Positions 4,610-43,267 of a DNA stretch of 64,000 nt are shown in pieces (position 1 is the first letter of the stretch; each line of letters starts with the position of its first letter). The position numbers and the translations under genes were made by a program. This DNA comes from Candidatus Magnetomicrobium cryptolimnococcus (lineage in GTDB: Bacteria > Nitrospirota > Thermodesulfovibrionia > Thermodesulfovibrionales > Magnetobacteriaceae), in assembly GCA_018606805.1 (NCBI GenBank), contig JAGYWI010000008.1, positions 62,001 to 126,000 on the forward strand. Direction: 5' to 3'. The notes under the pieces were generated by a model that worked only from the letters and a program-made list of their open reading frames with translations, was not told the origin of the DNA and made no database searches.

Positions 4610-4633
4610 ATGTCCCTTTTTTTATGGAGTGGT

Positions 4634-5617
4634 ATGAAACTTGAGGATAAATATAACCGTGTAATTGACTACATGCGGATATCTATAACCGGCAGATGTA
4701 ATCTGCGCTGTGTTTATTGTATCCCAGACAGGCACTCTGCAACTAACTGCTCAATTGATTACATGTCAGCCGAGGAGATACTTAAAGTTGTAGAATGTGC
4801 CGTTGAGCTTGGCGTTAAGAAAATAAGAATAACCGGTGGTGAACCTCTTATTAGAGGGGATATTGGTTATATAATAAAAAAAATCAAAGAACTTGGCGGC
4901 GTTGATGACTTAAGTGTTACCACCAATGGGATTAAGCTTGCCAAATACGCCTTTAGTCTTAAAGAGGCAGGGCTTGAGAGGGTGAATATAAGCCTTGACT
5001 CTCTTAATCCGCAGAGATTTGCAGAAATAACTAACGGTGGCCTGTTAAGTACAGTCTTTGACGGCATTAAGGCGGCTGAAAAGGCAGGTCTATTACCTAT
5101 AAAGATAAATATGGTACCTATACGCGGTATTAACGATGATGAGATTGAAGATTTTGCCAAGCTTACCTTTGTAACCAACTACCATATACGCTTTATCGAA
5201 CTTATGCCGTTTAATAAGGGCAAATGGTGGACAGCGGATAAGTTAATAAGTACTGAGGAGATTAAATCAAGGATTGAAAAAATAGCCCCACTTGAGCCTG
5301 TCAAAAAAAGACAGTCAGGGCCTGCTCGGTATTATAAATTTAGTGAGGCTTTAGGGGTTGTAGGCTTTATAAGCCCAATTACCCATCATTTCTGTAACCA
5401 ATGTAATAGGTTACGGTTAACATCGGAAGGCAAGCTAAGGCCTTGTCTTTTTATGAATAGGGAAATAGATTTACTTAGTGAGATTCGCAAAGGGGCAGGC
5501 AAAGAGGAAATTAAAGCGATTTTGTTAAAGGCAGTAGAAGTGAAGCCCGAAGGACACCGTATTGTAGAGGAGAAAGACCCGGTTTCTCAAACTGAGATGT
5601 CTAAGATTGGTGGATAA
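4634..5617 (+). CDS. moaA: GTP 3',8-cyclase MoaA (molybdenum cofactor biosynthesis)
   Basis: Radical-SAM enzyme that starts molybdopterin synthesis by converting GTP to 3',8-cyclo-GTP. I take the ATG at 4634 (327 aa), with GGAG at 4626-4629. The upstream in-frame ATG at 4610 falls in the T-tract of the terminator and has no ribosome site. Motifs are the N-terminal CNLRCVYC cluster (Cys22, 26, 29), TGGEPL for SAM binding, the C-terminal cluster ligands HFCNQCNRLRLT and RPCLF, and the terminal Gly-Gly needed for catalysis. moaC and mobA lie elsewhere in this window, and MoeB-like and TusA-like genes are at 28 kb. Confidence 0.95.
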   Translation: MKLEDKYNRVIDYMRISITGRCNLRCVYCIPDRHSATNCSIDYMSAEEILKVVECAVELGVKKIRITGGEPLIRGDIGYIIKKIKELGGVDDLSVTTNGIKLAKYAFSLKEAGLERVNISLDSLNPQRFAEITNGGLLSTVFDGIKAAEKAGLLPIKINMVPIRGINDDEIEDFAKLTFVTNYHIRFIELMPFNKGKWWTADKLISTEEIKSRIEKIAPLEPVKKRQSGPARYYKFSEALGVVGFISPITHHFCNQCNRLRLTSEGKLRPCLFMNREIDLLSEIRKGAGKEEIKAILLKAVEVKPEGHRIVEEKDPVSQTEMSKIGG

Positions 5618-5636
5618 GTAAAAGTGGAGGGAAAAT

Positions 5637-6806
5637 ATGATAGAGTGTTCAGATAAAGAATCTACAAATATTGGAAAAAATAACTCAGATGTTATTGATG
5701 AAAGGGATGTAATTAGATTAAATAGATATGATATTTCAGTAAATTTGATGCAACCTACAATTGAAACTTGGGTTTCATATATAGATAAAAAATATATATC
5801 TATACCACCATTTCAAAGAAATTTTCGGTGGAAGATTACAAAGGCAAGTAAATTAGTTGAAACCTTTCTATTAGGTTTACCGGTACCACCGATTTTTCTA
5901 TATGATGTAACAGAAAAAAAGCCTAGTTTTAGGTTGATAGATGGACAGCAACGTTTATTGAGTTTATTCTTTTTCATTAAAAATATCTTTCCAAAAGAAG
6001 GGGTACCCATATTTGATGGAAATAAACCAATAATAGATGTTATAAGTTCACTAAAAAATGAAAATAGATTACAGGAATTTGTTTTAACGGGTGTTGATGA
6101 CAGATGGAATGATTTAACATTTGGTGCTTTAGATGAAGATGATCAAATGTGGCTGCAAACAAGACCGTTATGGGCTATTGCCTTTAGACAAATAAAACCT
6201 GATCCTGATAATGAAAAATTAAATAGTATTTTCTATGTTTTTGAGCGTTTAAATACTGGTGGTGAGATACTTAATAGTATGGAAATGAGAAAGGCTTTAT
6301 TTTTTGGCGATTTTGCCCTATTATTAGAAGAATTAAATAAAAACCAGTATTGGAGAAAGATATACGGTAAAACCACTGAACATGAAAAATTAATTGATAT
6401 AGAACTAATATTAAGGTTTTTTGCATTACAAGAATGGACTATCTATAACGAACCTATGAAAGAATTTCTCAATAGTTTTATGCGTAATAAAATAAATGTT
6501 AGTTCAGAAGATATTGAACGCTCTAAAGATTTATTTTTAAAAACTTGTGAGTTGATTTATGATAGTGTTGGAGAGAAACCTTTCCATATATTTGGTCCTT
6601 TAAATACTGCAATGATGGACTCATTTATGGTGCTTACATCAAAACATGTTAGTAATCTTACACAAGATAAATTAAAAAATATTTATGAAAGCTCCAAAGG
6701 TAATGATGAGTTTAAGGAGCGTTTACAAGCAAGAGTCAATGTAGGGGAAGTTGTCTTGAAAGAACGTTTTACACTATTGTCATCAATTTTTGAAAAATAT
6801 GTTTGA
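5637..6806 (+). CDS. DUF262 (GmrSD/ParB-like N-terminal) domain protein
   Basis: 389 aa, 19 bp after moaA, with GGAGGG just before the ATG. DUF262 hallmarks are clear: IPPFQRNFRW (about 56-65), LPVPPIFLYD, then IDGQQRLLSL with the DGQQR motif at 102-106, and FERLNTGGEILNSMEMRKAL near 200-225. DUF262 is a ParB/Srx-like fold. In GmrSD, SspE and BrxU it serves nucleotide hydrolysis and sensing in antiphage nucleases. Here it stands alone without an obvious HNH (DUF1524) nuclease, and its 3' end overlaps a HEPN-type gene. No signal peptide or membrane segment is visible. The pair is AT-rich compared with moaA, consistent with acquisition. Domain assignment is firm; the defence role is inferred. 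Confidence 0.88.
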   Translation: MIECSDKESTNIGKNNSDVIDERDVIRLNRYDISVNLMQPTIETWVSYIDKKYISIPPFQRNFRWKITKASKLVETFLLGLPVPPIFLYDVTEKKPSFRLIDGQQRLLSLFFFIKNIFPKEGVPIFDGNKPIIDVISSLKNENRLQEFVLTGVDDRWNDLTFGALDEDDQMWLQTRPLWAIAFRQIKPDPDNEKLNSIFYVFERLNTGGEILNSMEMRKALFFGDFALLLEELNKNQYWRKIYGKTTEHEKLIDIELILRFFALQEWTIYNEPMKEFLNSFMRNKINVSSEDIERSKDLFLKTCELIYDSVGEKPFHIFGPLNTAMMDSFMVLTSKHVSNLTQDKLKNIYESSKGNDEFKERLQARVNVGEVVLKERFTLLSSIFEKYV

Positions 6807-7278
6807 GCAAACTCAAAAAATAGTAGATTTAATAAATACCATTGATGATAATGTTGTTGGTATACGCTTTTTAAAAGAGTATGCAGTTATTGTCTTTCAT
6901 GCAGAAGTAGAGTTAACTTTGCAAGAAATTTTTTTTCGTAAGACGATTTTTGACTGCACTAAAGATGGTTTTAAAAGAAATTTAAGTTCAACCTTAACAG
7001 GTAAGTTGTCTTTTCAGGATATTGGGGGAAAATTTAAGACGGATATATGGAGAAAAATAGAACGAGAAACGGAAACAGTACTAAAAAAAAACTTAAATGA
7101 CCCAACTTTTCATATAGAACAACTTAAACGTGATTATAATGAGCTTATTACTGCAAGAAATGAGCTGGCTCATCGAACTACGACATTGTATTTAATTGAT
7201 GTAAACAATATACAAAAATGTATTGATTTTATGAAAGCACTAATAGCAAATATGGAAAAATTTTCTCAAACTGCATAA
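6799..7278 (+). CDS. HEPN-type protein, probable RNase partner of the DUF262 protein
   Basis: 159 aa from the ATG at 6799, which overlaps the DUF262 stop by 8 bp; an in-frame TTG at 6790 is an alternative start. The sequence looks all-helical and ends with ARNELAHRTT. The Rx4H motif (Arg120...His125) is the catalytic signature of HEPN ribonucleases. The layout (two helices, a variable middle, then the R-x4-H helix) fits MAE_28990/RiboL-PSP-like HEPN families. The translational overlap implies a fixed ratio with the DUF262 protein, as in toxin/antitoxin or sensor/effector pairs. The exact HEPN subfamily is not determined. The next gene (alr) is convergent, so the pair ends the moaA transcription unit. 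Confidence 0.75.
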   Translation: MFEQTQKIVDLINTIDDNVVGIRFLKEYAVIVFHAEVELTLQEIFFRKTIFDCTKDGFKRNLSSTLTGKLSFQDIGGKFKTDIWRKIERETETVLKKNLNDPTFHIEQLKRDYNELITARNELAHRTTTLYLIDVNNIQKCIDFMKALIANMEKFSQTA

Positions 7279-7314: not shown

Positions 7315-8433
7315 TTATTCAACAAGAGTTTTTTTATTAATTCTACCAAAGGTTGTCAGTACCTCGTAAGAAATGGTATTTGCCCTTACTGCTAATTCAT
7401 TAGCACTTATGCTATTGTCCATCTGCTTACCTATTAATACCACTTCATCGTTATAATCTACACCGCTTATATCTGTCAAATCAACCATTATCGTATCCAT
7501 ACAGATTCTACCTACAATCGAAGCCCTTTGTCCGCGCACAAGTACAAAGGCATTGTTTGACAGAATACGCTGATAGCCATCTGCATATCCCATCGGAAGC
7601 ACGCCGATTACGCTATCCCGTTTCGTTATAAATGTGCGGCAGTAGCTTATGCTTCTACCTGCTGGCACGTTTCTGACTTCTATTAGGTTGGTTTTAACTG
7701 TCATTACAGGGCGTAAGTCAATATTGTTATATGCGCCATTTTTATAATTTAATGGGCTATAGCCATAAAGTGCAATACCCGGACGGATTGCATCAAGATA
7801 GGCTTCTTTTAATGTTAACGAGGCGGCACTATTAGACATATGCCACAAAACGGTACTCTGTTTTAGGTAATCCGACAGTTCTTTTTTTACTTCCATAAAT
7901 CGTTCTAATTGATTATAAGCAAAGGCTCTGTCTATTAAATCTGCCTCACTAAAATGACTCATAAAGCCAACTACATTTATGTTATCCAACTGCAAGACCT
8001 TTTTTATGTTTTCAACGCCAAGGTCATACAAAAACCCCACGCGCCCCATCCCCGTATCTACGTTTATGTGAACATTTAGAGAAACATTATACTTGAGAGC
8101 CCATTTTGACGCCTCGCATGCTGATTTGACGTTATAAATAATAGGGGTCAACTTATATTTTATGATCTTTTCTATGTCTATTTCATCAAAAAAAACAATA
8201 ACTTGCCCCTCTACACCTGCTTGCCGTAAACCTATTGCCTCCTCATTATATGCAACACCAAACATATTTGCCCCTTCAGCGGCAAACTCCCTCGCACATT
8301 CAACCATCCCGTGCCCATACGCATCCGCCTTTATAACACATATCACTGCGCGTTTACCCACCAAATCTTTTAATAACCGAAAATTGTGTCTCAACCTTGA
8401 AGCGCTTATCTCAAGCCTCGGTCCCCTTAGCAC
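7315..8433 (-). CDS. alr: Alanine racemase
   Basis: 372 aa, PLP-dependent fold-type III enzyme making D-alanine for peptidoglycan. It shows the PLP lysine in VIKADAYGHG (Lys35), the partner tyrosine in SISYCRTF (Tyr264), and VDTGMGRVGF, MSHFSEAD and the C-terminal GRICMDTIMVDLT. The start is a GTG (8433) 6 bp after the tatA stop. It is the last gene of dapB-mobA-tatA-alr on the minus strand; dapB also feeds cell-wall diaminopimelate, so the operon joins two wall-precursor enzymes. It converges with the DUF262/HEPN pair. Confidence 0.96.
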   Translation of the reverse strand: MLRGPRLEISASRLRHNFRLLKDLVGKRAVICVIKADAYGHGMVECAREFAAEGANMFGVAYNEEAIGLRQAGVEGQVIVFFDEIDIEKIIKYKLTPIIYNVKSACEASKWALKYNVSLNVHINVDTGMGRVGFLYDLGVENIKKVLQLDNINVVGFMSHFSEADLIDRAFAYNQLERFMEVKKELSDYLKQSTVLWHMSNSAASLTLKEAYLDAIRPGIALYGYSPLNYKNGAYNNIDLRPVMTVKTNLIEVRNVPAGRSISYCRTFITKRDSVIGVLPMGYADGYQRILSNNAFVLVRGQRASIVGRICMDTIMVDLTDISGVDYNDEVVLIGKQMDNSISANELAVRANTISYEVLTTFGRINKKTLVE

Positions 8434-37671: not shown

Positions 37672-38961
37672 ATGTCTAAGGTTTTTATTACTACGCTTGG
37701 GTGTCCTAAAAACGAGGCTGACTCAAATCATCTCTTGGATTTACTTGTAAAGGAGGGGATTTATCATACTGATAATCCTGCTGAGGCATCGCTTATCTTA
37801 GTCAATACATGTGGGTTTATTAATGATGCTAAGGAAGAGTCTATAGAGGAGATTTTACGTTTTATTGAGCTGCGGGCAAGTGGGCAGAGGATTTTGGTCT
37901 TTGGTTGTCTTGCTAAACGATACAAAGAAGAATTAATGAAGGAAATACCGGAAATTGATGCCTTATGGGGGATTGGTGATGAACAGCTCATAGTTCAGTA
38001 CTGTAAGAATCACGTAAAGGCAATCAATAAAAAAAGCCCCCTAGTGCCCATGAGTTTTAATTCCCAGCCCTATGAGTACTTAAAAATTGCCGATGGCTGC
38101 AACAGGCATTGCACGTTTTGTATAATACCAAAGATTAAAGGCCACTTTAAAAGTGAACACCCCGACAATATATTAAAAAAGGCTCAAAATGCCATCATTG
38201 CAGGTAAAAAGGAACTTATACTGGTTGCACAGGATTTGACATCATATGGTAGCGATAATGGTTATAGTCTTGAACGACTAATTGACGATATTGCCTCTAT
38301 AAGCGGGGACTTTTGGCTCCGGCTTATGTACTTATACCCGCTATCCGTGGATGAGTTATTGCTTCAAAAAATTAAAACTGAAGATAAGGTGTGTAAATAT
38401 CTTGATATACCACTACAACACTCAAAAGACAAGATACTTAGGGCAATGGGTAGGGGAATAAACAATGATTATATAAATTTTTTGACGAATATCAGAAAAG
38501 AAATCCCTGATGTGGTTTTACGAACTGCATTTATTGTTGGTTTTCCCGGTGAAGAGGAAGATGATTTTATGGGACTTTTAGACTTTATCCAAGAAATTCA
38601 ATTTGATAGATTGGGTGTCTTTGCCTACTCACGTGAAGAGGGCACAAAGGCTTTTAAAATGAAGCCAGTTTTGCCAAGGTATGTTATTAAACATAGAATA
38701 GACAGACTTATGGAACTGCAAGCCGACATTTCCTACAAAAAAAATATAGCCTATGTCAATAAATCATTCAAGGCGCTTATAGATGAAAAGGATAGCGCTG
38801 GCAATACATTTGCGAGACTCTATAGCCACGCCCCCGACGTGGATGGCTGTGTCTTTATAGAGAATGTATCTAACAATGTAACTGGTGAGTTTGTTAATGT
38901 TAAAATAACCAATGCCCATACATATGATTTAATTGGTGAGGTGTATACCAAAACGAATTAG
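37672..38961 (+). CDS. rimO: Ribosomal protein uS12 methylthiotransferase RimO
   Basis: 429 aa. Radical-SAM enzyme modifying an Asp of ribosomal protein S12. The N-terminal UPF0004 domain has TLGCPKNEADS and NTCGFI cysteines; the radical-SAM cluster is DGCNRHCTFCIIPKIKG; the TRAM domain closes the protein (KALIDEKDSAGNTFARLYSHAPDVDG). LGCPKNEADS and the TRAM region favour RimO over MiaB. It is the last housekeeping gene before the accessory block. Confidence 0.95.
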   Translation: MSKVFITTLGCPKNEADSNHLLDLLVKEGIYHTDNPAEASLILVNTCGFINDAKEESIEEILRFIELRASGQRILVFGCLAKRYKEELMKEIPEIDALWGIGDEQLIVQYCKNHVKAINKKSPLVPMSFNSQPYEYLKIADGCNRHCTFCIIPKIKGHFKSEHPDNILKKAQNAIIAGKKELILVAQDLTSYGSDNGYSLERLIDDIASISGDFWLRLMYLYPLSVDELLLQKIKTEDKVCKYLDIPLQHSKDKILRAMGRGINNDYINFLTNIRKEIPDVVLRTAFIVGFPGEEEDDFMGLLDFIQEIQFDRLGVFAYSREEGTKAFKMKPVLPRYVIKHRIDRLMELQADISYKKNIAYVNKSFKALIDEKDSAGNTFARLYSHAPDVDGCVFIENVSNNVTGEFVNVKITNAHTYDLIGEVYTKTN

Positions 38962-39059
38962 TTTTACAAACCATTTTTATTTTGGTATAAATCAAAAAAA
39001 GATTGCTGTCCTTTCTTTTATAATCTTTCTTTTAACTTTTACACCAGCACCATTATATT

Positions 39060-39239
39060 CTAATAGTATAAGCAGCCGCCTTGATATGTACCACATGATG
39101 TTTGTACCCTTTGGTAATATACAGAGCCACTACAACTACACGGAGAGCCCTCACATGAGCTTGGTACACACGATGGTACCTTGTAACACCCATAAAGTGT
39201 TGTTAGTGCTAAAATTACTGCTATAAATAATAGTCTCAT
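39060..39239 (-). CDS. Small cysteine-rich lipoprotein
   Basis: 59 aa, read directly from the minus strand. ATG at 39239 with GGAGG (complement of 39250-39254) 10 nt upstream, and stop TAG at 39060. The signal MRLLFIAVILALTTLYGC has a lipobox ending in Cys18. The mature part is only about 42 residues with six further cysteines (at about 24, 29, 34, 36, 49 and 56), plus Ser, Gly and Tyr. No known family comes to mind. It is the last minus-strand gene of the accessory block, convergent with rimO. Frames on the opposite strand here are shadows. Confidence 0.72.
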   Translation of the reverse strand: MRLLFIAVILALTTLYGCYKVPSCVPSSCEGSPCSCSGSVYYQRVQTSCGTYQGGCLYY

Positions 39240-39490
39240 ATCGTTTATTCCTCCAGTTTGTTTGATAATTATACAACTATGAAAAATGTTTTTACAATTG
39301 AAACTTGAAAAGGCAACGATTCAGCCGACATTCCGCACCCTCTTAAATTTGTTTTTATTTTCAATGAGTTAGTGTATTGACACAACCAGACTTAAGTTTT
39401 ATAATTTATTGAAAAATAATGATTTTTAATAGGGGTTATGAAACTCTGTGAGCAAGTTTTTTCTGCTTGATTAAATTAGACCGTCCCTCT
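39240..39490. other. Intergenic region with an orphan consensus promoter
   Basis: 251 bp between two minus-strand genes. The left end is the ribosome site of the Cys-rich lipoprotein gene. It carries a plus-strand consensus promoter at 39377-39405 with no plus-strand gene behind it, and an ATG at 39438 that opens only a 10-codon frame preceded by AGGGG. Confidence 0.6.
39377..39405 (+). promoter_or_regulatory. Consensus sigma70 promoter without a sense gene
   Basis: TTGACA (39377-39382), 17-nt spacer, TATAAT (39400-39405): both hexamers match consensus. It points rightwards into the 3' end of the minus-strand gene 39491-39970, so the transcript would be antisense to it. Confidence 0.65.
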
Positions 39491-39970
39491 TTAAAATTGC
39501 CAAAACCATGCAGTTAAATTGTTATTATCAAGGGCTAAGAAGGCCATTTGCTTTTGATAAAGCAAGCCCTCGTATTCAAATTCGACATTACATGAAAAAA
39601 ACTCGTAAGAACTTTGTAAAAAACCAGAATATGGTTTTAAAGTATTAGGCCACCATTTAGCCGACCTACGAGGATAACGTACCTGTGATTTTTTAATTTT
39701 CTTACAGGCATTATAAATAGAAGATAGGCTTGAAGGAGAATAGTTGAATTTAATAGTTATTTCGTTGGAATCAATGTTATGTCGTTCAAATATTTTGGTG
39801 GCATCAGGTGGGAAGAATGCTGGTATCCATCCTCTTTTTACAGCACCTTTTTCAATTGCTTCACTATAAGTTTGATAAAAATTCTCTTCAACGTCAAAAT
39901 TATATGTGTCACAGTAAGTAAGCGTTAATATTATTAAAAATATAACTGTCTCCAGTATTTGTGTTATCAA
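39491..39970 (-). CDS. Small secreted or lipoprotein-like protein, unknown function
   Basis: 159 aa from a TTG start with AAAGGT 7 nt upstream. The N-terminus is hydrophobic (ETVIFLIILTLTYC) and could be a signal with an imperfect lipobox (LTYC). The mature part has YSEAIEKGAVKRGWIPAFFP and FERHNIDSNE. This RGWIPxxxPxxAxxIxExHxxDxNE pattern I associate with small lipoproteins scattered in Proteobacteria, but I cannot name a family with confidence. It ends with a Trp- and Phe-rich tail (AWFWQF). It belongs to the minus-strand accessory block. Confidence 0.65.
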   Translation of the reverse strand: MITQILETVIFLIILTLTYCDTYNFDVEENFYQTYSEAIEKGAVKRGWIPAFFPPDATKIFERHNIDSNEITIKFNYSPSSLSSIYNACKKIKKSQVRYPRRSAKWWPNTLKPYSGFLQSSYEFFSCNVEFEYEGLLYQKQMAFLALDNNNLTAWFWQF

Positions 39971-40641
39971 TATAAGTACCTTTGGCTAATGTATTATGCT
40001 GGTTGTTAATCTGCTCTACAACATTTATAACGTTGTCCACTTCTTTGTAACAGCCATATCACATATTATAACATCACTAAACTAATAAATAACAGTGTCT
40101 TCTTAAAATTTTAAAATTTCATGGTAGTTTCTCACAAAAATATTTTTATAAAATCATAAATGCTTATAAATCAAGGATTTTAAAAATAAAAAATGAGATT
40201 TTAAAATTTTACACTGAAATTTTAAGAAGGTACAATTACCACTTTTGAGCAAGTTTTTTTAGTTGACAACGGATGTTGGCTAACAATTTTATATGATTTT
40301 TAAAATAATATATATATCAATACTTTATACCATTTTTTTATGATTTTAGGTAGACACTACGAGTCGACTTTTTTGAATAGCTTTTTAAAAACTATTATCA
40401 TGGTAAGTATCTAATTAATAAGGATAATTTTAATGTAGACACTACTATTTTTAAAAAATAATTAAAAATTAAGTGGTTATATTGTCTTTTTTTTGAAATT
40501 TAGCCAACATCCGTGACAAATAATCATTTATTGTAATTGCAAACAAAGTGAGGGCTTACCCTTAGGTTTGCCCTATGTTCCTTAAGAAAAAACTTTAACA
40601 TCGAGTAACAGGTACAGATTAGAAATACAGTATTTTAATCA
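39971..40641. other. 671-bp very AT-rich gap with inverted and direct repeats
   Basis: No credible gene. CTTCTTAAAATTT (40099-40111) is mirrored by its complement at 40217-40229, bounding a 131-bp MITE-sized segment. CGGATGTTGGCTA (40270-40282) has its complement at 40501-40513, bounding 244 bp. GTAGACACTAC occurs twice (40350-40360, 40435-40445) inside the second segment. Confidence 0.6.
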
Positions 40642-41257: not shown

Positions 41258-43267
41258 CTATGATTCTGATTTAATTATTGCCGATATAGCATTAAAACTA
41301 TTAGCAGCACCTTTTGTAACCTCTCCCACGATTGTTGCTATTGCTTTAGCGGCTTCAGTCTTTGAATCGGTTTCTTTATTAAATTGCTGTAACTGTACTT
41401 CAATGTTCTTTGTATCTGTTTCCACCTTACGGTATTCTAAGTCTGCCTTTGTTTTGTATGCCTCAATGCCAAGTCTTGCTATTTCTGTACTTGCCCGTAC
41501 TTGTTCTATGTATCGTTTTAACTCGGCATCGTATTTGTCTATAATTGTTTTATTATTACTTACAATGGCATTTATTTTTGATGTATGGGCATCAAGTTGT
41601 ACTTTATACTGTTCAATGGTCAGTTGCTCGTTTCTGTACTTAGCCTCTGCTTGGTTTTTTGCTATTTCGGATTTTAGGCGGGCTGCCTCCATTTTAGTTT
41701 GAAATGCCTGCACCTTTGTTTCATATTCTTGTAACTGCATCTTACCCTTTTCAAGACTGGCTTTAAATGCCTCAAATTCAAGCCGCTTAAAATCCAGATG
41801 TGTTTGATACTCTTGAATTGTGTACTTAAGCTGTTCAAGGCTTGTCATATGTGCCTCAGCATAGGTCTTTTGTGCCTCAAGTTCGGTTTTATAAATATTC
41901 ATCTTAATTTGTACAGCGTTGAGGCGTTCACGGTACAGCTCTATTAATATTTGCTTTGCTTGTAGCAAATTAGCATATGCTTCAACATCTATTCTATAGG
42001 TGTCTTGTTTAATTCGTTCGGCTTCTACTTGTATACCATACACTTGTGCTTGTGTCTGATACACTTGCACCTTTGCACCATAAAGCCTAATTTTAGAGTC
42101 AAAGAACTTATATGTTTCAGCCGCTGCCATTGTTTCTGCATCAAATGCCTGTATTTGTGCTCGATAAGCATCAACCTTTGCACTATAGAGTGCGACCCGT
42201 GCATTATAGTTTTTTAATAGTAGGTCAAAAACCGTATGGCTTGCTTCAATTGCGGTTTTGGCAGTTAAAAGAGCCCTATCTTGTACGGAGTTGTGCCATC
42301 TCCGTAGTATTTCATCTAACTTTATAGCAGAATCAATGGTATGTTGCCTTGCAGCAAAGTGTAACTCTGCTCGTTTGATGTAAATATCGCGCATAGACTC
42401 CAACAGTCTATCCCTTACCTCCTGTTGCGCACGACGAATGGCTGCATTTCTAGCCCCTGTCGGTATTGGAAAGCCAAAGGCTGCATGGGTCTTGTTAATA
42501 TCCTCTATGGCTTTGTTGGCTGTGTAAATGGAGTTATCTTTAAGTCTCTGTGTTAACATAAGCTCGTCTGTGGATTCTATGCCGTAGGTACCGTTAGATA
42601 GGTCGCTTAAGAGTTTTGCTATTAATGTTATGTCTATTTCCTCGTTAAACGGCACTTCTTGGTAATCCAGCTCGCTGTTTAAGGACTCTGGCAGTTGGTC
42701 TTCCCACGAGCTTTCAGGCGTTAGTGTTGGCAAGGTAACGGTTTTAGCATATTCGTTGAACTGCTCCGTAAAGCTAGGTAGCGTGCTATTAAATGCCGGC
42801 CACTGAAGTGCTGGTTTTTCTGGCTGTTGTGGTAGTGAAAAATCCTCTTCTGAGGGCTCGGCAGGGTATGATATATCTGGTTTTTCTATTCGTTCAAGGT
42901 CAAAGGAAGGTACGTTTAAATTCAACTCTTCAAGTGCTATACTTGGCACATCTTTAGTGTCGAGATTTGGTTGCCCCACATCGTCATCAGGTATGGTAAT
43001 ATCTGAGACTAATATTTTTTCTAATGATATTGATGTTTGTAAGTCTGTTGGTAGGTTATCAATATCAGGGGCTTGTGGCACGTCATCTTTTAGAGCACTT
43101 AGGGCATTACTTATTGTATCGTAATCACCGTAATCTGTTACTGTTGGCAAGGTTATGTTAGTTATTGTATTTGCAACGGCTTGAAGATTATCTAAATATG
43201 GCATAAGCTCACTTTGCAAATTATCTGAATAATTTTGTATATATTCTATAATGCTTTCTGGAGTCAT
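41258..43267 (-). CDS. Large coiled-coil protein of the tail-like block
   Basis: 669 aa with a strong AGGAGGGGG ribosome site. Residues 1-240 are acidic and rich in Pro, Ile and Leu (TLPTLTPESSWEDQLPE), probably extended. Residues 245-650 are almost entirely helical with an aromatic every seventh position (ALYSAKVDAYRAQIQAFDAE, LYGAKVQVYQTQAQVYGIQ), implying a very long rod. The junction contains GFPIPTGARNAAIRRAQQEVRDR. I know similar Y-x-A-x-V-x-A proteins only as phage-associated hypotheticals. It probably builds a fibre or needle-like rod of the tail. It follows the 43.3-kb beta-rich gene by 57 bp. Confidence 0.75.
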   Translation of the reverse strand: MTPESIIEYIQNYSDNLQSELMPYLDNLQAVANTITNITLPTVTDYGDYDTISNALSALKDDVPQAPDIDNLPTDLQTSISLEKILVSDITIPDDDVGQPNLDTKDVPSIALEELNLNVPSFDLERIEKPDISYPAEPSEEDFSLPQQPEKPALQWPAFNSTLPSFTEQFNEYAKTVTLPTLTPESSWEDQLPESLNSELDYQEVPFNEEIDITLIAKLLSDLSNGTYGIESTDELMLTQRLKDNSIYTANKAIEDINKTHAAFGFPIPTGARNAAIRRAQQEVRDRLLESMRDIYIKRAELHFAARQHTIDSAIKLDEILRRWHNSVQDRALLTAKTAIEASHTVFDLLLKNYNARVALYSAKVDAYRAQIQAFDAETMAAAETYKFFDSKIRLYGAKVQVYQTQAQVYGIQVEAERIKQDTYRIDVEAYANLLQAKQILIELYRERLNAVQIKMNIYKTELEAQKTYAEAHMTSLEQLKYTIQEYQTHLDFKRLEFEAFKASLEKGKMQLQEYETKVQAFQTKMEAARLKSEIAKNQAEAKYRNEQLTIEQYKVQLDAHTSKINAIVSNNKTIIDKYDAELKRYIEQVRASTEIARLGIEAYKTKADLEYRKVETDTKNIEVQLQQFNKETDSKTEAAKAIATIVGEVTKGAANSFNAISAIIKSES

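Follow-up and report, generated by a model that had tools for sequence, protein, structure and literature searches.

We propose that two overlapping genes in a Nitrospirota genome form an anti-phage module that was acquired horizontally and belongs to the PD-T4-2 type, in which a DUF262 sensor protein would gate a HEPN ribonuclease, and we give this reading a probability of about 0.7. In its favor are the Pfam and PADLOC matches, the strict pairing of the two genes, their conserved motifs, the predicted folds, the carriage of homologous pairs on plasmids and in phages, and the anti-T4 activity of PD-T4-2, while against it stand the distance of this HEPN protein from the tested PD-T4-2 effector and the setting of the pair among housekeeping genes, not in a defense island. 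The pair is a real but diverged member of the DUF262/RiboL-PSP-HEPN kind, and because the PD-T4-2_A model is matched but PD-T4-2_B is missed, we term it PD-T4-2-like and not a strict PD-T4-2. This combination of domains is already known, having been recorded in 2013 (PMC3710099) and validated in Escherichia coli in 2022 (Vassallo et al., PMC9519451), and hence the initial annotation of this DNA erred in implying that it was undescribed. All positions given below are those of the window, that is, the whole 64,000-nucleotide stretch of DNA that was analyzed, except where a locus is named.

The gene pair and its surroundings

Both genes are on the + strand (Table 1), and the 8-nt overlap of their reading frames, which had been described initially together with the R120-x4-H125 motif of the second protein, suggests translational coupling. 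The second gene has two possible starts, an ATG that gives the 159-residue protein and an upstream TTG that gives one of 162 residues. Upstream is moaA (4610-5617), with the DUF262 gene beginning 19 nt past its end, and downstream is alr (7315-8433), which is on the opposite strand and convergent to the pair. The GC content of the pair is 0.29 versus 0.37 for the window and 0.40 for both moaA and alr, in line with the AT-rich character that was originally noted for the pair between these two genes. No promoter for the pair was recognizable above chance, two terminator-like sites were found, neither of them positioned after the DUF262-HEPN operon, and neither protein was matched in NCBIfam. In relatives moaA and alr do not lie side by side, and thus no empty site could be read between them. 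We infer that the pair was acquired horizontally, and the copy in the window is probably active.

Elsewhere in the window, a further AT-rich stretch (38550-40450, down to 28% GC) is mostly without long open reading frames, and the product of a gene on the - strand (41258-43267) is long and coiled-coil-like and may belong to a mobile element or prophage.

Table 1. Positions of the two genes and of their sequence features within the window.
Feature	Position	Strand	Basis or remark
GGAGG (likely ribosome-binding site, DUF262 gene)	5626..5630	+	sequence
DUF262 / GmrSD_N protein	5637..6806	+	389 aa; Pfam, PADLOC, model, BrxU/SspE structural matches
QR motif (Q60 R61), DUF262 nucleotide pocket	5814..5819	+	invariant in 90 homologues
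DGQQR motif (residues 102-106)	5940..5954	+	D102, G103, Q105, R106 invariant in 90 homologues
FxRLN motif (residues 202-206)	6240..6254	+	F202, R204, N206 invariant in 90 homologues
Overlap of both reading frames (8 nt)	6799..6806	+	sequence; homologous-pair spacing
RiboL-PSP-type HEPN protein, predicted ribonuclease effector	6799..7278	+	159 aa; Pfam PF18735, all-helical model, HEPN toxin matches
R120-x4-H125 catalytic motif of HEPN ribonucleases (predicted)	7156..7173	+	conservation in homologues

The DUF262 protein

The first protein matches the Pfam family GmrSD_N (PF03235, formerly DUF262) at 86.9 bits (2.6e-24; curated cut-off 33.2) and contains the motifs PPFQR, IDGQQR and FERLNTGG, all of which the initial annotation had placed here. 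Neither protein of the pair has a Pfam match to DUF1524/HNH, and thus the usual nuclease of DUF262 systems is indeed absent. The protein is predicted to consist of a ParB/Srx-fold NTPase-sensor and a helical C-terminal domain, with no nuclease domain. Its model (pLDDT 89.5) has BrxU and SspE as the top structural matches, followed by ParB/Noc CTPases and sulfiredoxin. The alignment with BrxU reaches residue 421 (1-421 of the 587-residue chain) at an overall rmsd of 15.6 A, a value so large that the domain arrangement of the model is uncertain, while over the DUF262 domain the fit to SspE is closer, at 3.8 A across 152 residues. The best match in PADLOC is NsnA (8.1e-51), which we take to be a component of Menshen, followed by PD-T4-2_A (3e-34), and both of these models are matched by all 90 of the family DUF262 proteins. 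A search on NsnA returned nothing relevant among the papers covered.

Most DUF262 proteins of the family have an acidic N-terminal tail, which in the window corresponds to the region 5637-5726. Its median net charge is -8 among 154 HEPN-paired DUF262 proteins, and the net charge at the N-terminus is -3 or lower in 86% of these versus 9% of 658 other open reading frames; the tail is weak in the window copy, with a net charge of only -2. The tail was considered as a means of controlling the HEPN partner and this was rejected, since DUF262 proteins for which no HEPN neighbor was detected have the tail about equally often, and it is therefore not tied to the pairing.

The HEPN protein

The second protein matches the Pfam family HEPN_RiboL-PSP (PF18735) at 35.8 bits (1e-8; curated cut-off 28.4), a family also matched by 85 of the 88 paired HEPN proteins. 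Its model is all-helical (pLDDT 89). Nothing significant was matched by Foldseek alone, and it was a slower aligner that gave the HEPN matches, with the ten top-ranked entries of the structural search all being HEPN proteins. The toxins of HEPN-MNT modules scored highest, with a Z of 9.5 at 3.6 A across 121 residues, compared with 6.1 for Csm6 and 5.8 or less for unrelated helical bundles, Z values of such a size not being decisive alone for helical proteins. In the R-x4-H region, the HEPN family profile also aligns with a CRISPR-associated protein of known structure. Such a string by itself carries little weight in a protein of 159 residues; R120 and H125 are, however, nearly invariant (at least 90% of 88 homologues), as is E38. 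Taken together, the structural Z values, the Pfam match and the near invariance of R120 and H125 make the HEPN assignment secure, and the fold proposed in the initial annotation stands. The R-x4-H motif is kept in 158 of 163 HEPN open reading frames, and of the other five, one is truncated where its contig ends and four read K-x4-H. In the K-x4-H partners (L064, L072, L075 and L091) catalysis may be weakened or abolished.

Pairing and co-inheritance of the two genes

The genome (3.59 Mb, 98.5% complete) contains exactly two PF18735 genes and two full PF03235 genes, and these make up two pairs. The second, paralogous pair (L002:718-2469) is on the same contig, approximately 50 kb upstream of the pair in the window, and beside it is a gene whose product, judged by eye, resembles a patatin-type lipase.

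Genome contigs were scanned with a DUF262 alignment and the 80 best loci were kept, which hold 82 DUF262 open reading frames and span the Nitrospirota, Pseudomonadota, Acidobacteriota, Chloroflexota, Bacteroidota, Clostridia and archaea, among others. Neighbors were searched with an iterated HEPN profile built from 13 of them. Of the 82 DUF262 open reading frames in these best 80 loci, 75 have a HEPN gene directly downstream (76 if L053 is included, an extra case in which the called start overlaps further). Although the loci were picked solely by their DUF262 sequence, most of the seed alignment was drawn from HEPN neighbors, and the rate is therefore valid for this DUF262 subfamily. The relatives' more distant DUF262 genes are mostly without HEPN. 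The same arrangement was found for 68 of 81 DUF262 open reading frames in viral contigs and at all six of the plasmid loci examined, and all recorded gaps between the two genes but one are within -44 to +29 nt. In a mirror-tree comparison of 130 pairs, the pairwise distances of the DUF262 and HEPN proteins correlate with r = 0.78, the maximum of 2000 permutations being 0.11, and for 68 of the 130 both proteins have their nearest relative in one and the same pair. The two genes are inherited together and their pairing, which recurs far beyond this genome, is no accident. DUF262/RiboL-PSP-HEPN is thus a widespread two-gene arrangement that is tightly co-inherited across bacteria and archaea, and a PD-T4-2-like module is now placed in a Nitrospirota genome.

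Plasmids, phages and flanking genes

Plasmid-borne pairs are present in Escherichia, for example on the E. coli plasmid pLR-27_3, and in Exiguobacterium, Kocuria and Hymenobacter, and Salmonella plasmids contain near-identical DUF262 genes. A tblastn search of plasmids with the window HEPN protein gave no match, which left the DUF262 half as the sole usable probe. Many viral contigs, phage or prophage-like, contain pairs, and phage records include related DUF262 genes together with a following gene. In Akkermansia phage Chambord (L198:1890-4700) a DNA methyltransferase gene, a DUF262 gene and a probable HEPN gene, the latter with a weak PD-T4-2_B match, are found in a row, and this could possibly be a self-protecting version of the module.

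The flank survey of homologous pairs revealed no recurrent third gene. The immediate neighbors include several DNA methyltransferases and restriction enzymes, while most are unrelated, and as the survey had no control set we claim no enrichment in defense islands despite these restriction-modification genes. The pair in the window is itself outside any defense island, flanked by housekeeping genes. Computation supports the initial annotation as regards domain content, the lack of an HNH nuclease, the fold of the HEPN protein and recurrent pairing, and does not support it as regards the novelty of the combination or a defense-island setting. There is good reason to read the pair as a defense system, since PD-T4-2, a validated anti-T4 system, is made up of the same two domains (PMC9519451, PMC10952713).

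Proposed mechanism and alternative explanations

In the anti-phage module that we favor, the DUF262 protein, with its ParB/Srx-like NTPase pocket and helical domain and no DNase, would detect some mark of infection by a phage, which is most likely a feature of phage nucleic acid such as modified DNA. A nucleotide-driven change in this protein, through the binding or hydrolysis of NTP, would release or activate the co-translated HEPN protein, to which it presumably binds. The HEPN protein, probably as a dimer, would then cleave RNA through R120/H125 and in this way stop phage production. DNA sensing and an NTP switch are expected because of the analogy with BrxU, SspE and GrwAB, in which the NTP pocket of DUF262 is important and the trigger is modified DNA (PMC12137116, PMC10952713), and as the partner is a HEPN protein the output should be RNA cleavage, predicted to proceed by way of R-x4-H. 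According to Vassallo et al. (2022, PMC9519451), their systems selected with T4 generally also protect against T2 and T6, which is compatible with the sensing of modified DNA and does not demonstrate it.

The main alternative is a toxin-antitoxin system, in which the HEPN protein would be an RNase with constitutive toxicity, countered by DUF262 as its antitoxin, with the maintenance of a plasmid or island as the main benefit and phage defense secondary. The overlapping genes, strict pairing and plasmid carriage are in its favor, as is the fact that the nearest solved folds are those of HEPN toxins from HEPN-MNT modules. We nevertheless consider it unlikely, as the first gene encodes the complete, invariant NTP pocket of defense sensors, not an MNT or small DNA-binding antitoxin, and PD-T4-2 is not among the toxin-antitoxin-like systems listed by Vassallo et al. 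(PMC9519451). Distinctly less probable is DNA restriction of a type IV-like kind, whereby the DUF262 protein would itself be the DNA-nicking enzyme, with a structural or regulatory role for the HEPN subunit. The near invariance of R120 and H125 would be needless for a purely structural HEPN protein and there is no DUF1524/HNH domain, even though the DUF262 proteins of GmrSD, BrxU and SspE do work in DNA restriction, some ParB/Srx proteins nick DNA (PMC12839542), and DNA methyltransferases adjoin a few of the pairs.

We find it very improbable that the pair is the remnant of a three-gene Menshen system with an NsnA-like DUF262 protein and its other components lost, as NsnA, while the best PADLOC match here, is also matched by all 90 of the HEPN-paired homologues, no third gene recurs, and the neighbors in the window are moaA and alr. 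An inactive defense-island leftover without present function, which might be suggested by an AT-rich insert amid housekeeping genes with no promoter recognizable above chance, is scarcely credible given that both frames are open and all of the family-invariant motif residues are intact.

Returning to the anti-phage module, a broader and quite tentative view is that DUF262/RiboL-PSP-HEPN pairs might represent a phylum-spanning form of modification-dependent immunity that converts the recognition of phage DNA into RNA cleavage, in effect a 'type IV restriction' sensor joined to an RNase, with the acidic N-terminal tail as a built-in inhibitor. If the HEPN protein is the effector, DUF262 sensors of the DNA-restriction type would be linked to RNA cleavage, and the question of what the pair senses and cuts is common to the whole family.

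Comparison with known systems

The pair shares the HEPN fold with HEPN-MNT toxin-antitoxin systems and Csm6 (Z 9.5 and 6.1, respectively), but its partner is DUF262 and not a nucleotidyltransferase or CARF domain. Its DUF262 protein is of the same NsnA subfamily as that of Menshen, yet the OLD/TOPRIM nuclease partner of that system (PMC10952713) is missing from the operon, which has moaA and alr as neighbors instead. With GmrSD, BrxU, SspE and GrwAB it has in common the DUF262 domain with its QR, DGQQR and FxxxN motifs, as well as the fold in the case of BrxU and SspE, but in those systems the nuclease is a DUF1524 His-Me DNase, and here a HEPN protein takes its place. Lacking DUF1524 in either protein, the pair therefore does not belong to the GmrSD-type IV enzymes.

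Closer relationships are evident with two reports of the same kind of pair. RiboL-PSP-HEPN was recorded as being in an 'operon with ParB' by Anantharaman et al. (2013, PMC3710099), and as DUF262 is called 'ParB' elsewhere in the same table, the HEPN family is identical and the partner is most likely also DUF262, although that entry is a table row without mechanism or tests. PD-T4-2, which was selected from E. coli ECOR65, protects both its native strain and K-12 against T4 (Vassallo et al. 2022, PMC9519451), and in a later review it appears under DUF262 as well as under PF18735 HEPN (PMC10952713). We found no solved mechanism for it. The PADLOC model PD-T4-2_B did not match the window HEPN protein up to E = 1, one such model is weakly matched by 12 of 88 HEPN homologues (best 2e-6), and the second pair of the same genome also gives a weak match (1.6e-4). 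Hence, the pair resembles PD-T4-2 in its two genes, DUF262 and PF18735 HEPN, and in the match to PD-T4-2_A, and differs from it in a HEPN protein too diverged for PD-T4-2_B and in a host from the Nitrospirota as opposed to E. coli. With PF03235 above its cut-off and an adjacent PF18735 gene on the same strand that retains R-x4-H, it falls within the broad DUF262 plus RiboL-PSP-HEPN kind.
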